Shown: in pieces, positions 1,710 to 10,847 of the stretch
Layout: each line of letters begins with the position of its first letter
Numbering within the stretch: the stretch's first letter is position 1
Assembly: GCF_004363095.1 (NCBI RefSeq)
Contig: NZ_SNYO01000003.1
Coordinates: 62,001-126,000, forward strand
Length of the DNA stretch: 64,000 nt
DNA from: Actinomycetospora succinea
GTDB taxonomy: Bacteria; Actinomycetota; Actinomycetes; Mycobacteriales; Pseudonocardiaceae
Direction: 5' to 3'
Translations under genes and position numbers: made by a program
Notes under the pieces: generated by a model
What the model saw: the letters and a program-made list of their open reading frames with translations, nothing else
What the model was told of the DNA's origin: nothing
Databases searched by the model: none

Positions 1710-1918
1710 CCAGCCTCCCGGTTGGCACTTCCTACGACGCGCCTCGCCAGGCCTCGCGGCGGCTGCGGCGCGTGATGATTCAGGCCACCGACCCGACGAC
1801 ACCGGGTGGTGGACAGGTGCCGCAGTGTAGGAGGTGCGTGTCACCTGGTCGCACGGCAGTTCCCCCGGACGCTGTGAGGTGTGTTTCTTTCACGAACGAG
1901 AGCGGGGGTGGGAGGGCT

Positions 1919-4279
1919 GTGTCAGGGTCGGAGCGCGTGGGGCTCTCCGGTGACGTCGAGGTGCTCTCCGGCGAGACCCGCGGCGCCCAGCTGCTGCGTC
2001 GCGTGCTCGCCGGCACCCCGTCCGGCGAGAGCCCGCTGACCCACGCCGAGATCGTCCCGGCGCGCGACGGACGCACCACCGGCTGGCCCGAGTGGGTCCC
2101 GGAGGCGGTGCGCGCCCCGTTCCTCGCGCGGGGCGTCGAGCGGCCGTGGGGCCACCAGGTCGCCGCCGCCGAGCACGCCTGGGCCGGCGAGCACGTCGTC
2201 GTCTCGACGGGCACCGCCTCGGGAAAGTCGCTGGCCTACCAGCTGCCGGTGATCACACGCCTGCACACGGACCCGCGCGCGACCGCCCTGTACCTCTCGC
2301 CGACCAAGGCGCTGGGCGCCGACCAGCTGCGCACCGTCCACGATCTGCGCGTCGACGGCGTGCGCGCCGCGTCCTACGACGGCGACACCCCGATCCCCGA
2401 GCGCGACTGGGTCCGCCAGCACGCCAACTGGGTGTTCACCAACCCCGACATGCTCCACCGCGGCGTCCTGCCGCGGCACGGTCGCTGGACGACGTTCCTG
2501 CGCCGCCTGCGCTACGTCGTGATCGACGAGTGCCACTCCTACCGCGGGCTCTTCGGCTCGCATGTGGCGTTGCTCATGCGGCGACTCCGGCGGGTCTGCG
2601 CGCGCTACGGCGCGCACCCGACGTTCGTGCTCGCCTCGGCGACGGTGTCCGAGCCCGCCGCCTCGGCCTCGGTGCTGACCGGGCTGGACGTGGTGGAGGT
2701 CACCGACGACGGGTCGCCGCGCGGGGCGCGGGCCGTCGCGCTGTGGGAGCCGCCGCTGCTCGACGAGGTCACCGGCGAGAACGGGGCGCCCGTGCGGCGC
2801 TCGGCGGGCGCCGAGACCGCGCGGATGCTCGCCGACCTCGTGCTCGAAGGGGCCCGGTCGCTGGCGTTCGTCCGGTCGCGGCGCGGAGCGGAGCTGACCG
2901 CGCTGGGGGCGCGGCGGGTGCTGTCGGAGGTGGATCCGGCGCTGGCGTCCCAGGTGGCCGCGTACCGGGCCGGCTATCTCCCCGAGGAGCGCCGGGAGCT
3001 GGAGCAGGCGCTGCTCACCGGGGCACTGCGCGGCGTGGCGACGACGAACGCGCTCGAGCTCGGGGTCGACATCGCGGGTCTCGACGCCGTCGTCGTCGCC
3101 GGGTTCCCGGGGACGCGGGCGTCGTTCTGGCAGCAGGCGGGACGCGCCGGGCGCTCGGGGGACGACGCGCTCGTCGTGCTCGTGGCCCGCGACGACCCGC
3201 TCGACACCTACCTCGTGCACCACCCGCAGGCGATGCTCGGCGCGCCGCTCGAGCGCTGCGTGCTCGACCCGACCAACCCGTACGTTCTCGCGCCGCACCT
3301 GGCGTGCGCGGCGTCGGAGATCCCGTTGACGCGGGAGGACGTGTCTCTGCTCGGGGGCGACGCCGCGCTCTCCGTGGTCGACGACCTCGTGGCCGAGGGG
3401 CTGCTGCGGCGCCGGCGCGGCGGTTGGTTCTGGTCGCACCCCACCGACCGGCCGCACGCCGGCGTCGACATCCGGGGCAGCGGCGGTGAGCAGGTCGTGC
3501 TGGTCGAGTCCGAGACCGGGCGCATGCTCGGCACCGTCGACCCCGGGACCGCGCCCGCGACCGTCCATCCGGGCGCGGTGCACCTGCACCAGGGCGAGAG
3601 CTACGTGGTCGACACGCTCGACCTCGACGAAGGCCTGGCGCACGTGCACGCCGAGGACCCGGAGTGGACGACCCAGGCCCGGACGGTGATCGACATCTCG
3701 GTGGAGGAGACCGAGCAGTGCGCGGGCTTCGGCGAGCTGCAGGTCTGCCTGGGCTCGGTCGAGGTGACCGAGCAGGTGGTCGGCTACCTGCGCAAGCTCC
3801 CCTCCGGGCGGGTGCTGGACTCGACGCCGCTGGACATGCCGGCGCGATCGCTGCGGACGCGGGCGGTCTGGTACACGCTCACCGAGTCGGCGCTCTTGCG
3901 CGCGGGGCTCGAGCCCGCGCAGTGGCCGGGCGCGCTGCACGCCGCCGAGCACGCGGCGATCGGGCTGCTCCCGCTCGTGGCGACCTGCGACCGCTGGGAC
4001 ATCGGCGGCGTGTCGACGGCCCTGCACCCCGACACCGGGCACCCGACCGTCTTCGTGCACGACGGCCACCCCGGCGGCGCGGGGTTCGCCGACCGGGCGC
4101 ACGAGGCGCTGCGGGAGTGGCTGGCGGCGACCCGGGCGGCGATCTCGGACTGCGAGTGCCCCTCGGGGTGCCCGTCGTGCGTGCAGTCGCCGAAGTGCGG
4201 GAACGGCAACGACCCGCTCGACAAGGCGGGCGCGATCCTCGTCCTCGACGCGGTGCTGGGGCGGCTGGCGGAGGGCTGA
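1919..4279 (+). CDS. DEAD/DEAH-box helicase with C-terminal DUF1998 (MrfA/YprA type)
   Basis: Superfamily 2 helicase of 786 residues. Visible motifs are Walker A GTASGKSLAYQLP (about residue 98), DECH (about 203), the SAT motif SATVSEP, and motif VI QQAGRAGRSGD (about 405). A C-terminal DUF1998 region carries four clustered cysteines, CECPSGCPSCVQSPKCGNG, typical of the metal-binding site in Bacillus MrfA. By family it unwinds DNA 3'-5' and may act in repair of crosslinks or alkylation; that role is inferred. GTG at 1919 follows GGGAGG. The frame stays open upstream to 1772, so a longer N-terminus is possible. Mycobacteria have the same gene near their Tad locus (Rv3649). Confidence 0.93.
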   Translation: MSGSERVGLSGDVEVLSGETRGAQLLRRVLAGTPSGESPLTHAEIVPARDGRTTGWPEWVPEAVRAPFLARGVERPWGHQVAAAEHAWAGEHVVVSTGTASGKSLAYQLPVITRLHTDPRATALYLSPTKALGADQLRTVHDLRVDGVRAASYDGDTPIPERDWVRQHANWVFTNPDMLHRGVLPRHGRWTTFLRRLRYVVIDECHSYRGLFGSHVALLMRRLRRVCARYGAHPTFVLASATVSEPAASASVLTGLDVVEVTDDGSPRGARAVALWEPPLLDEVTGENGAPVRRSAGAETARMLADLVLEGARSLAFVRSRRGAELTALGARRVLSEVDPALASQVAAYRAGYLPEERRELEQALLTGALRGVATTNALELGVDIAGLDAVVVAGFPGTRASFWQQAGRAGRSGDDALVVLVARDDPLDTYLVHHPQAMLGAPLERCVLDPTNPYVLAPHLACAASEIPLTREDVSLLGGDAALSVVDDLVAEGLLRRRRGGWFWSHPTDRPHAGVDIRGSGGEQVVLVESETGRMLGTVDPGTAPATVHPGAVHLHQGESYVVDTLDLDEGLAHVHAEDPEWTTQARTVIDISVEETEQCAGFGELQVCLGSVEVTEQVVGYLRKLPSGRVLDSTPLDMPARSLRTRAVWYTLTESALLRAGLEPAQWPGALHAAEHAAIGLLPLVATCDRWDIGGVSTALHPDTGHPTVFVHDGHPGGAGFADRAHEALREWLAATRAAISDCECPSGCPSCVQSPKCGNGNDPLDKAGAILVLDAVLGRLAEG

Positions 4280-4670
4280 CGGCGACGCGAGCGGGGAGTT
4301 CGGACGCGTCGAGGCAGCGAACAGCGCGTTCGCTGCGAAGCCGGGGGCTTGGGCTCCGCCGCGGGTCGGGGGTTCGGGGTCCGCCCGACCCGCGGCGAGG
4401 TCTGTCACGCCGCAGGCCGAGGAGCGTCTCGACCCGGCCTGCGGCGCGGTTTGTGGCGGCGGTGGGCGACTCGGTCGCGCGCGGCCCACCGCCGCGGGGT
4501 CCTCCCCTGGCCCGGACCGTCGGCCGGTCGCGACGGGTGGACCGGCGCGTCGGCCTTCGGTGGTCCGGGTGGGGCGGCGGGCGCGCGGCTCGTGGTGGCC
4601 TCGCTGGTCCGGCGTCGCCCCGAGGGGACCCGAAGTGTGTGTAGTTGTGGTGGTGTCGTCGGCGGGAGCG
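4280..4670. repeat. ORF-free convergent intergenic tract with serial perfect inverted repeats
   Basis: There is no credible gene in these 391 bp between the helicase (+) and the prim-pol-like gene (-). Five stem-loops follow one another: 4314-4336 (9-bp arms GCAGCGAAC/GTTCGCTGC, 5-nt loop); 4357-4397 (14-bp arms, 13-nt loop); 4408-4446 (12-bp arms, 15-nt loop); 4456-4495 (12-bp arms GCGGCGGTGGGC/GCCCACCGCCGC, 16-nt loop); and 4511-4569 (8-bp arms CCCGGACC/GGTCCGGG, with a nested 6-bp stem at 4524-4545). The first may end helicase transcription. None has a T tract. The rest, 4570-4670, is unremarkable. Confidence 0.8.
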
Positions 4671-5315
4671 CTAGGAGCGGACCCCGGTGGCGACGGTGGC
4701 GAGGCGGTAGGTCGACCCGCCGCCGGCGACGGCCGGACGCTGGGCGACGGCCTCGGCCAGCGCGTCCTGGACGCGGAACGGGTCGGGCAGGGCCCAGCCG
4801 CACGCGGCGGGGCGGACCCGCCAGTGCACCGATCCCTGCGGGTGGGTCGAGGGCGGCGCGGCGAACCAGCTGCCGCGCCCGTGCAGGACGATGCCCGCGC
4901 GCTCGGCGAGGTCGGGCCGCAGGGGCTCGCCCGCGCCGACGGGGAACAGCCACTCGCCGGTCGGGGTCGCCGCGATCGGCACCGGGACGCCGACCGCGCG
5001 CAGCACGGCGGCGGCGCGCCGGCCGACCGTGGCGGGGACCTCGAGCACGTCGAAGGTCAGCCCGGTCGGTAGCAGGATCGAGTACGGCAGGCCGGACCAC
5101 CAGTCGGCGATCTGGTCGCAGTCGGTCGACGCCCGGCGCGCCCAGTCGTCGAGGACCGGGCACGGACCGTCCTGGGAGGCGTCGGAGCAGCCGCTCCACA
5201 CCTCGCCCTGCGGGAACGTGCCCGGGACGACCGCCCAGCCGTGGTCGGCGAGCACCATGGCCTCAGCGCGGAGCTCCGTGCCGTAGACGGCTCGATAGCT
5301 GTCCCACCACTGCAT
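4671..5315 (-). CDS. prim-pol-like protein (N-terminal bifunctional primase/polymerase domain)
   Basis: 214-residue protein beginning MQWWDSYRAVYGTELRAEAMVLADHGWAVVPG, the start of the prim-pol fold (PF09250-like) that is widespread as an orphan in actinomycetes. Other family-like stretches are CPVLDDWARRASTDCDQIADWWSG, LFPVGAGEPLRPDLAERAGI, and GSWFAAPPSTHPQGSVHWRV. Where replicative prim-pols have an acidic DxD, this protein reads TFDVLEVP, with only one Asp aligned, so catalysis is doubtful. There is no helicase or replicon nearby. ATG at 5315 has AGGAGG six bases upstream; ATG at 5321 would sit directly on the RBS, so 5315 is preferred. Confidence 0.75.
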   Translation of the reverse strand: MQWWDSYRAVYGTELRAEAMVLADHGWAVVPGTFPQGEVWSGCSDASQDGPCPVLDDWARRASTDCDQIADWWSGLPYSILLPTGLTFDVLEVPATVGRRAAAVLRAVGVPVPIAATPTGEWLFPVGAGEPLRPDLAERAGIVLHGRGSWFAAPPSTHPQGSVHWRVRPAACGWALPDPFRVQDALAEAVAQRPAVAGGGSTYRLATVATGVRS

Positions 5316-5503
5316 CGGCATCCTCCTGGACCGGTTCCTGCTCCCGGTGTGCTGTATCCAGTAACGGCACGCGCACGTCGCTTCGCCACCCGTCATCGCC
5401 CATCGGCCGTGATCACACGCTGAGCGTCACGGTCGGCCCCGTCGAGCGGGCGAGCGCGCGATGAGTAGCAGGGCGGTCACCGATTGCTCCGGCGGGTCGC
5501 CGC

Positions 5504-8260: not shown

Positions 8261-9561
8261 GCCGGCTCCCGGTGCAGCACGGCCACTCCGGCGGCGACCG
8301 ACACGGCGCGCGGCGGTCGGGCGGGCACGAGCGACGGCGGCGCGGGCTCGGGCGGCTCGGGCGGGCCCTGGGGGTCGGGCGCGCCCTCCCACGGCGGCGC
8401 CACCCCGCGCTCACGCAGCATCGCCGCGAGGTCGGCGCGCCCGACCGCCCAGCCGTCGCCGCGGGTCCAGGCCGGCACCACGACGACCTCGCCCGCCCCG
8501 TCGCGGCGGCGCAGGATGCCGACCGCGTCGAGCGTGCGCGCGCCGTCGCCCCCGCGCCGCACCTGCAGGATCACCTGCACCGCGGCGGCGAGCTGGCTGT
8601 GCAGGGCCGCCGGGCCGAGCCCGCCGAGCGCCGCGAGGGCCTCCAGGCGCGCGGGCACCTCGCGGGGCGCGTTGGCGTGCACCGTGCCCGCGCCGCCGTC
8701 GTGGCCCGTGTTCAGCGCCGCGAGGAGCTCCACGACCTCGCCGCCGCGCACCTCGCCGACCACGAGCCGGTCGGGGCGCATCCGCAGCGCCTGGCGCACG
8801 AGGTCGCGCAGGAGCACCTGGCCCGCGCCCTCGACGTTCGCCGGGCGGGACACCATCCGCACGACGTGGGGGTGCACGGGCCGGAGCTCCTCGGCGTCCT
8901 CGACGCACACGATGCGCTCGCTCGGCGCCACCTCGCCGAGCAGCGCCGAGAGCAGCGTCGTCTTGCCCGAGCCCGTCCCGCCCACCACGAGGAAGGCCAG
9001 CCGGGCGGCCACCACAGCGCGCAGCAGGGCCGCGCCCTCGGCGTCGACCGTGCCGGTGGCCGCCAGCGTCGCGAGGTCGTGGCGGGCGGGGCGCAGCACC
9101 CGCAGCGACACGCACGTGCCGTCGGCGGCGACCGGGGCGAGCACCGCGTGCAGCCGCACCCCGGAACCGGGCAAGCGGGCGTCGACGTAGGGGCTGGCGT
9201 CGTCCAGGCGCCGCCCGGCCGCGCTCGCGAGGCGCTGGGCCAGGCGGCGCACGGCGTCCTCGTCGGGGAACGACACCGCGGTGCGCTCGAGGCCGGCGCC
9301 GCGGTCGATCCACACGGCGTCGGGCGCGGTGACGAGCACGTCCGAGGTGCCCGGCTCGCGCAGCAGCTCCTCGAGCGGCCCGGCCCCCACCAGCTCGCGC
9401 TGCAGGCCGCGTACCGCCGTCAGGACGTCCGCGTCGCCGACCACGCCGCGCGCCTCGGCCCGCACCGCCGCGGCGAGCTCGCCGGCCCCGGCCTGCCCGC
9501 CGGAGGTGACGAGGCGCGTCCGGACCCGCTCGACCAGCGGCGTCTCCGGCGCGGCGCTCAT
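8257..9561 (-). CDS. TadA/CpaF-family secretion ATPase
   Basis: 434-residue type II/IV secretion ATPase. The N-terminal domain contains PLEELLREPGTSDVLVTAPDAVWIDRG. Then come the His/Arg region, Walker A GGTGSGKTTLLSALLGEV, the Asp-box CVEDAEEL, Walker B RPDRLVVGEVRGGEV, and the His-box region GHDGGAGTVHAN. A Pro-rich tail of about 60 residues follows. It powers pilus assembly from the cytoplasmic face. ATG at 9561 overlaps the upstream gene (ATGA). Position between the CpaE/Ssd-like ATPase and TadB matches the mycobacterial Rv3659c locus. Confidence 0.94.
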   Translation of the reverse strand: MSAAPETPLVERVRTRLVTSGGQAGAGELAAAVRAEARGVVGDADVLTAVRGLQRELVGAGPLEELLREPGTSDVLVTAPDAVWIDRGAGLERTAVSFPDEDAVRRLAQRLASAAGRRLDDASPYVDARLPGSGVRLHAVLAPVAADGTCVSLRVLRPARHDLATLAATGTVDAEGAALLRAVVAARLAFLVVGGTGSGKTTLLSALLGEVAPSERIVCVEDAEELRPVHPHVVRMVSRPANVEGAGQVLLRDLVRQALRMRPDRLVVGEVRGGEVVELLAALNTGHDGGAGTVHANAPREVPARLEALAALGGLGPAALHSQLAAAVQVILQVRRGGDGARTLDAVGILRRRDGAGEVVVVPAWTRGDGWAVGRADLAAMLRERGVAPPWEGAPDPQGPPEPPEPAPPSLVPARPPRAVSVAAGVAVLHREPA

Positions 9562-10658
9562 GCCGCCCGTCCCCGGTCGGCGACGGCGTCGAGCGCATCG
9601 ACCACGGCCCGTGCGGCGTCCTGCAGCGGCCCGCGGCGCACTCCCGGCACCCTGCCCTGCTCGAGCGCCCGGTCCAGGCCCGGCTCGGCGTCCACGGACG
9701 CGAGGACGTCGAGGCCGAGCGCGTGCGTCACGTCCTCGGCGTCGAGCCCGCCGGGCGCGGGCCCGCGGACGACAAGCCGCAGCACCACCCCGCGCTCGGC
9801 CAGCGGCTCGATCACGCGGGTCGCCGCGGCCACCGCACGGACCTCCGCCGGTACGACCACCACGACCAGGTCGGCGACGTCGGCCACCGCCAGCGCGGTG
9901 TCGGTGGGGTGGCGCGGGAGGTCGCAGACCACGACCTCGCCGGCCCGCCGCCCGGCCTCGACGACGGCGACCGCCGCGCCGGGATCGGGGCCCGCGCCGG
10001 CGCGGTCGCACGCCAGCACCGTGAGCATCCCGCCCGGCGAGGGCAGCGCCTCGTGCAGCGACGCGGCGGCGACCCGGCCACCGCCCCCGCCGCCGAGGGC
10101 GAGCCCGCTCCAGCGCAGGCCCTCGAGCTCCTCGGCGCCCGCGACGAGGTCGAGCCCTCCGCCGAGCGGATCGCAGTCGACGAGCAGCACCCGCTCGTCC
10201 CGGGAGCCGGCGTGGGCCGCGACGGCGACCGCGAGCACCGACGCCCCGGCACCGCCGCGTCCGCCGACCACGGCGACCACCCGCCCGGGCCCGGCGTCGT
10301 CGCGCGGCCCGGTGTCGGCGAGCTCGGCGACGAGCCAGTCCTCGCCCTCGGGCAGCGAGACGACGTGCTCGGCGCCCACCCCGACCGCGTGCTCCCAGAG
10401 CGTCCCCGGCGGATCGCTCCGGCACAGGAGCACCACGCCGTCACGCCGCCCGAGCCGCAGCGGCCCGACGGCGCGCGCGGCAGCCTCGTCGACCAGCACG
10501 AGCGCGGCGGTGTGCCAGCGCCGCCGCAGGCCCGGCGCGTCCGGCACCCGTTCGAGCTCGACCTCGGCGGCGGCCGCGAGCCGCACGACCTCGTCGAGGA
10601 GCTCCTCGTCGTCGGTCATCACGACCACGCGCCGGTCGTTCGCGCCAGCCATCCCCAT
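9558..10658 (-). CDS. Ssd/CpaE-like MinD-family ATPase
   Basis: 366 residues. A degenerate receiver-like N-terminal domain (DRRVVVMTDDEELLDEVVRLAAAAEVELERV) is followed by a MinD/ParA P-loop domain. The P-loop is VVGGRGGAGASVLAVAVA, a deviant Walker A lacking the usual GK[ST] lysine position, as reported for Rv3660c-type Ssd proteins. Other features are LLVDCDPLGGGLD and VVCDLPRHPTD. Family members localise Tad machinery or affect septation; which applies here is unknown. ATG 10658 lies eight bases after GGGGAGGG; ATG 10652 is possible. It is the first gene of the Tad operon. Confidence 0.85.
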   Translation of the reverse strand: MGMAGANDRRVVVMTDDEELLDEVVRLAAAAEVELERVPDAPGLRRRWHTAALVLVDEAAARAVGPLRLGRRDGVVLLCRSDPPGTLWEHAVGVGAEHVVSLPEGEDWLVAELADTGPRDDAGPGRVVAVVGGRGGAGASVLAVAVAAHAGSRDERVLLVDCDPLGGGLDLVAGAEELEGLRWSGLALGGGGGGRVAAASLHEALPSPGGMLTVLACDRAGAGPDPGAAVAVVEAGRRAGEVVVCDLPRHPTDTALAVADVADLVVVVVPAEVRAVAAATRVIEPLAERGVVLRLVVRGPAPGGLDAEDVTHALGLDVLASVDAEPGLDRALEQGRVPGVRRGPLQDAARAVVDALDAVADRGRAA

Positions 10659-10847
10659 CGCCCGTGCCCTCCCCGTCCACCGCCTGACGAGGAGCACGTT
10701 GCCGGGTCGGGAGCCGGTGCCGTGAGCAGCGGTTCGCCGCCTGTGGACCGAGGGCGGGGGTGGGGACGACCGCGCCGCACGATGGGCCGCGATCCGCGCC
10801 CGGACGCCGCAACGGAGGCGCCCGGGCGGCCGTCCTGCGCGCCTGAC

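Follow-up and report, generated by a model that had tools for sequence, protein, structure and literature searches.

What is an array of long perfect inverted repeats doing between two genes that run head-on into each other in Actinomycetospora succinea? The array came to attention through an earlier note on a stretch of 64,000 nucleotides of this genome (the window, to which all plain coordinates refer), which described five consecutive perfect stem-loops at 4314..4569 in an ORF-free convergent spacer and proposed a structured noncoding RNA, a multi-hairpin barrier to transcription, or a condensin or recombination site. The spacer, 4280-4670, is indeed convergent: a helicase gene on the plus strand ends at 4279, and the stop codon of a PrimPol gene on the minus strand lies at 4671. 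The two genes are as follows.

1772..4279, plus strand: MrfA/HRQ1-like DEAD-box helicase (Pfam PF00270, PF09369, PF22982, PF00271); longest ORF, start uncertain
4671..5327, minus strand: PrimPol-domain protein (Pfam PF09250, E 3.1e-16), upstream of the candidate RNA on this strand

The closest named relatives of the PrimPol-domain protein, from A. lutea, A. lemnae, A. straminea and others, are 93-96% identical to it. Open frames cross the spacer, and three of them were checked and lack a Pfam match. Between genomes, the loops change in length by steps other than multiples of three, and a coding explanation was rejected on these grounds. All five stems exist. Stem 1 pairs 4314-4322 with 4328-4336 (9 bp, loop of 5 nt), stem 2 (H2) 4357-4370 with 4384-4397 (14 bp, loop of 13 nt), stem 3 (H3) 4408-4419 with 4435-4446 (12 bp, loop of 15 nt) and stem 4 (H4) 4456-4467 with 4484-4495 (12 bp, loop of 16 nt). 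Stem 5, absent from the stem listing that contained the other four, was read directly from the sequence (4511-4518 with 4562-4569, 8 bp, arms 43 nt apart). The array also exceeds what chance would give. A sample of 864 kb of the same genome, made up of the window and 40 stretches of 20 kb, holds 67 perfect stems of at least 12 bp with loops of 3-20 nt. Three non-overlapping perfect stems of at least 12 bp within 200 nt occur only in the target spacer, and two such stems at three other places. First-order Markov controls on 264 kb of this sample gave 2, 2, 2 and 5 stems versus 18 observed. When the 391-nt spacer was folded, the z-score was -6.76 on the minus and -2.38 on the plus strand, and none of 100 shuffles was as good on either. 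Rfam 15 covariance models did not match the spacer at the gathering score, nor at E 5.

The reading of the five stems as a single array had to be given up. Stem 1 belongs to a dispersed repeat and stands apart from stems 2-5; thus, the five stems represent two features, and a single five-stem unit was rejected. Searched against its own genome, with 40 of 404 candidates scored, the spacer yields 19 additional places with E of 1.8e-4 or lower, the best at 1.1e-13, all through its first 70 bases, while the best second match of the remainder has E 6.2e-4 and, among the same 40 of 404, no strong copy was found. The core GCGAACN{3,9}GTTCGC occurs at 41 places of the host genome versus none in a reversed control. 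A stricter pattern of the repeat unit is found in 11 of the 18 genomes of the genus, with match counts from 0 to 66, and in the target spacer a CGAAC/GTTCG hairpin occurs in three genomes only (G000, G004, G017). The repeat is REP-like in that it shares with REP/BIME repeats a short palindromic unit in many copies, some of which are arranged as pairs or inverted pairs; the likeness applies to stem 1 only. Two repeat pairs in inverted orientation, at L009:2371-2505 and L009:3618-3749 (G000:C3 about 363,870-365,250), flank approximately 1.1 kb with an ORF, and this segment could be a mobile unit. A palindrome type with AACGAACGGCGCTTTCGCTGCTT or AACGAACGGCGCTCTCG and its complement, by eye akin to the stem-1 family, forms perfect stems of 17-23 bp in convergent spacers (L115:12051-12099, L137 spacer 9906-10068, L129:7355-7403).

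What remains of the array is a conserved block that extends from a short motif near the PrimPol gene to the end of stem 2. The features of the spacer are listed below.

4287..4345, plus strand: REP-like repeat copy containing stem 1 (hairpin 4314-4336), outside the conserved element
4345..4650, minus strand: conserved structured element (candidate RNA), bounded by CACAACT and by stem 2 and seen in alignment and folds
4357..4397, minus strand: H2, 14-bp stem
4398..4407, minus strand: H2-H3 linker, largely conserved in the alignment, AGACCT on the minus strand
4408..4446, minus strand: H3, 14-bp stem (here 12 perfect bp followed by a single G-U, minus-strand reading)
4456..4495, minus strand: H4, 12-bp stem; inside part 15-24 nt in clade A and 38-74 nt in clade B
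4496..4631, minus strand: D1, domain closed by GGGUC...GACCC (minus strand) that holds the fifth stem; RNAalifold, both clades, pairing less certain
4643..4649, minus strand: CACAACT motif, start of the conserved block (CACAA in all 16 genomes)

This architecture emerged from homologous spacers, which were fetched from 18 Actinomycetospora genomes via the C-terminus of the helicase. H2, H3 and H4 occur in the same order in all 17 readable spacers. One genome whose contig ends inside H2 (G011) was left out of all stem counts, and another whose contig ends before PrimPol (G015) was left out of the counts of spacer length, z-scores and four-fold sites. The 16 complete spacers are 308 to 572 nt long. 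RNAalifold applied jointly to all 17 sequences misplaced H4, and stems were therefore located per genome and the two clades folded separately. In A. succinea itself, the gaps are 10 nt between H2 and H3 and 9 nt between H3 and H4. H2 is doubled as a unit of 56-57 nt in two spacers (L035 of G002 and L040 of G014). Thus, the hairpin array can expand by tandem duplication.

Are these stems maintained by selection? For the 28 pairs of H3 and H2, 98.4% of the cells pair, against at most 52.5% in slid controls. Fourteen cells carry two-sided changes versus 5.7 in shuffles, and the covariation score is 0.089 versus 0.043; in none of 500 shuffles was the share of paired cells, the count of two-sided cells or the covariation score as high. 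Other measures discriminate less: 31 of the 500 shuffles attained the three pairs (of 28) with a two-sided change, and 491 attained the six pair types. The compensatory changes whose absence the earlier note had named as refutation are present in stems 2 and 3, although they mostly reflect one clade split and few independent events, and the shuffles ignore relatedness. Between clades A and B, the paired differences are C-G to G-C in H3 and U-A to C-G in H2, and one genome has G-C to A-U in H2 as well. In sum, conservation of the structure is good; covariation is real, if thin.

Conservation of the stems goes further than pairing. Mean stem identity is 98.7% among clade-A genomes, 97.9% among those of clade B and 92.2% from one clade to the other; the corresponding values for four-fold sites of the PrimPol gene, from a codon alignment, are 66.9%, 65.2% and 57.3%. 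The loops vary between genomes in sequence and in length (10, 11, 13, 14, 15 or 16 nt in H2, 11-14 nt in H3). These comparisons show strong constraint on the stems, with conserved pairing and free loops. Since pairing alone would permit drift by paired changes, the stems must be held in sequence too. A structured noncoding RNA, as suggested in the earlier note, thus gains support where stems 2-4 are concerned; the support is weaker for the domain that holds stem 5, and stem 1 has no part in it.

The element has a narrow distribution. A covariance model of H3 and H2 matches 17 of the 18 genomes of the genus, at a single place each, and one genome shows an additional weak, overlapping match on the opposite strand. 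With stricter filters, which can lose weak matches, the same model found nothing in 279 genomes of other genera among the 297 Pseudonocardiaceae genomes searched. A search with laxer filters in 40 genomes, one per genus, gave outside the own genome eight that reached only E 0.19-0.94, which was taken as chance. All 14 named Actinomycetospora loci examined, probably for the most part of the same species as the genomes above, have H2-H4 as well, and the locus of Pseudonocardia spinosispora lacks them. Among the genomes searched, the element is restricted to Actinomycetospora. Its absence from those of other genera indicates that it arose in, or entered, the Actinomycetospora lineage. The gene order is shared more widely: the helicase lies convergently downstream of PrimPol at 23 of 24 further Pseudonocardiaceae loci, with gaps of approximately 8-45 nt at 12, approximately 107 nt at two and 349-1093 nt at nine of the 23. 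None of the stems listed at these 23 loci contains the H2-H4 arms. Hence, neither the helicase nor PrimPol needs the array in general. An origin from a plasmid or phage was rejected, because blastn against plasmid and phage collections gave no match to the element and no viral contig carried the exact H3 pattern.

Several observations bear on the strand from which the element may act. With 40 dinucleotide shuffles each, all 16 spacers fold better than the shuffle mean on both strands, so that the second refuting outcome named in the earlier note was not found either, with z-scores of -5.5 to -11.0 on the minus and -1.9 to -5.7 on the plus strand. The minus-strand value is the lower one in 16 of 16 genomes, if only slightly in G012 (-5.6 versus -5.4), but the gap between the strands is partly an effect of composition. 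Counting the 14 outer pairs each of H2 and H3 and the outer 12 of H4, all five one-sided changes give G-U on the minus and A-C on the plus strand, a count that omits seven clade-B non-pairs at the second H2 pair (A-G or G-G, unpaired on either strand). Over the whole element, with all pairs predicted on both strands, there are 9 G-U cells, 7 A-C cells and 15 others. As this wider count shows no clear minus-strand surplus of G-U, either the pairing of D1 or the strand may be wrong. In each of the 16 complete spacers, the conserved motif follows the stop codon of PrimPol by 13-37 nt, whereas on the helicase side the first H2 may stand anywhere from 9 to 248 nt past the stop; this fits an association of the element with the PrimPol side. 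A search for a sigma-70-like promoter near the element found none.

On balance, we lean towards a genus-specific, single-copy structured RNA element of approximately 300 nt, located 3' of PrimPol on the minus strand and equipped with sequence-specific stems. Read in this direction, the element would begin with the closed 5' domain D1, followed by H4, H3 and H2. Minus-strand transcription would yield it either at the 3' end of the PrimPol transcript or as a small RNA, processed or independent. It would then function at the RNA level, most likely through double-stranded stems whose sequence a protein recognises. Given its place between two genes that face each other, the element probably blocks read-through from either side as well.

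The main rival to this structured-RNA reading is a pure terminator. According to this alternative, which we regard as possible but rather unlikely, the array is only a strong bidirectional cluster-of-hairpins terminator for both head-on genes, and the conservation of its stems reflects an unusually strong need for insulation. Hairpins are common at such places: in the own-genome sample, analysed with a crude gene caller, stems of at least 12 bp occur in 27 of 72 convergent spacers versus 14 of 288 tandem and 8 of 130 divergent ones, and hairpins at convergent ends probably terminate transcription. The genome also contains a family of perfect hairpins of 18-21 bp that carry GTGAG(T/C) towards their outer end and close on a loop of four bases (TATA in 4 of 10); eight of the ten lie at the junction of convergent genes, and their arms vary between copies while complementarity stays perfect (L112:3539, L115:5498, L117:11259, L117:16364, L120:10639, L126:15250, L127:19640, L131:19459, L137:15757, L147:76). 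A classical intrinsic terminator, that is a G+C-rich stem followed by a T run, was found on neither strand of 4200-4900 in a scan limited to loops of 3-8 nt. PMC8355165 describes clusters of GC-rich hairpins less than 15 nt apart as terminators that lie downstream of genes, do without a U-tract and are relatively commoner in GC-rich genomes. The gaps between H2, H3 and H4 fall below the 15 nt given there.

Distances to the stop codons give a divided picture: the first H2 lies within 80 nt of the helicase stop, approximately the limit for a cluster terminator, in 9 of 16 genomes and 100-248 nt away in the other seven, and the end of H4 is 114-205 nt from the PrimPol stop. In other respects, the array differs from these terminators. 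It is not tied to the helicase stop, it contains the additional domain D1, and its arms are conserved throughout the genus whereas the hairpins at control convergent ends turn over. For the latter comparison, four other convergent ends were followed across species, which are few, and the loci used were 18 of 20 fetched for C1, 17 of 20 for C2, 15 of 19 for C3 and 10 of 15 for C4 after weak paralogues had been left out. At C2, where the adjacent protein is 86-100% identical, a perfect stem of at least 10 bp is found in 11 of 17 genomes, but the type of the own genome is recognisable in only five and the others have different types. At C4 (protein 80-100% identical), 4 of 10 genomes have a perfect stem, with three arm types. 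The hairpin of C1 is confined to the own genome and absent even where the protein is 90% and 86% identical. The mildest case is C3, where the own arm type is still recognisable in 4 of 15 genomes; the proteins at C1 and C3 are less conserved further out. The GTGAG(T/C)-type hairpins are likewise gained and lost between species. Hairpins at the other convergent ends are thus lost, gained or exchanged for different ones (C1, C2, C4), whereas the target arms are kept in 17 of 17 genomes, which is unusual for a convergent end and argues that the array is not an ordinary terminator. The multi-hairpin barrier of the earlier note accordingly stays plausible as far as the enrichment of hairpins at convergent ends goes, but the frozen target array does not behave like the hairpins that turn over elsewhere.

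A more far-reaching variant of the RNA reading, which we regard as unlikely, is that the frozen stems, free in their loops, form a lineage-specific tandem array of variable number that captures a sequence-specific dsRNA-binding protein, as a scaffold or sponge, or that switches between neighbouring stems. Compared as arm duplexes, the H3 3' arm with the H2 5' arm has a predicted energy of -30.6 kcal/mol, and the native stems have -34.0 and -33.4 kcal/mol. Such a device would have arisen in the ancestor of Actinomycetospora between genes that lie only approximately 8-45 nt apart in 12 of 24 outgroup loci.

A different alternative, and a distinctly improbable one, is that the element acts as DNA, either with protein bound to the paired arms or through cruciforms involved in chromosome organisation or recombination. 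The frozen arm sequence and the single-copy location would suit this explanation. However, the spacing of the arms runs out of helical phase (H2 loop 10-16 nt, inside H4 15-74 nt), which makes an operator of duplex DNA unlikely, as there the spacing would be held in phase. The one-sided changes in H2-H4 that all give G-U on one strand also speak against a role as DNA, and a distributed chromosome-organising site is hard to reconcile with the lack of a second such array in 864 kb. The condensin or recombination site suggested previously gained no positive evidence.

Least probable of all, to a degree that makes it barely worth entertaining, is that the element is the genus's version of Ms1, the 6S-related RNA of Actinobacteria that binds the RNA polymerase core, at a moved position. 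6S RNA has the shape of one long rod with a bubble, and the element consists of separate hairpins instead. It was also not found in the 279 family genomes from outside Actinomycetospora. Its length near 300 nt and high degree of structure would fit, and PMC9130861 reports Ms1 candidates from Pseudonocardia and many related genera, found through HAD hydrolase, CpaE or oxidoreductase neighbours. With helicase and PrimPol as the wrong neighbours, identity with Ms1 was rejected. What the element shares with Ms1/scr3559 is the character of a noncoding actinobacterial RNA of a few hundred nucleotides, in the present case a candidate; it differs in flanking genes and architecture, in not being found outside Actinomycetospora, and in that the RNA is predicted. 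A CpaE-type septum site-determining protein, Ssd, is encoded at 9561-10697 on the minus strand of the window, not adjacent to the element, and tests of three further neighbours identified no HAD hydrolase.

The structured RNA element proposed here resembles candidates from comparative genomics such as those in PMC2864571, which likewise combine conserved intergenic structure and covariation with no known function; the difference is that the present element matches no Rfam 15 model even at the permissive threshold. In the literature searched, no paper was found that names Actinomycetospora together with non-coding or noncoding RNA, and a co-mention with 'small RNA' concerns a Streptomyces strain. 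Of 20 papers that mention both the genus and a transcriptome, the eight listed have no title that concerns transcripts of Actinomycetospora itself. For Actinomycetospora, the locus thus provides a candidate structured RNA without an Rfam relative, set apart by its frozen stems and free loops from the hairpins found where other genes converge in these genomes. Comparing turnover at such ends is an inexpensive means of distinguishing functional hairpin arrays from ordinary terminators.
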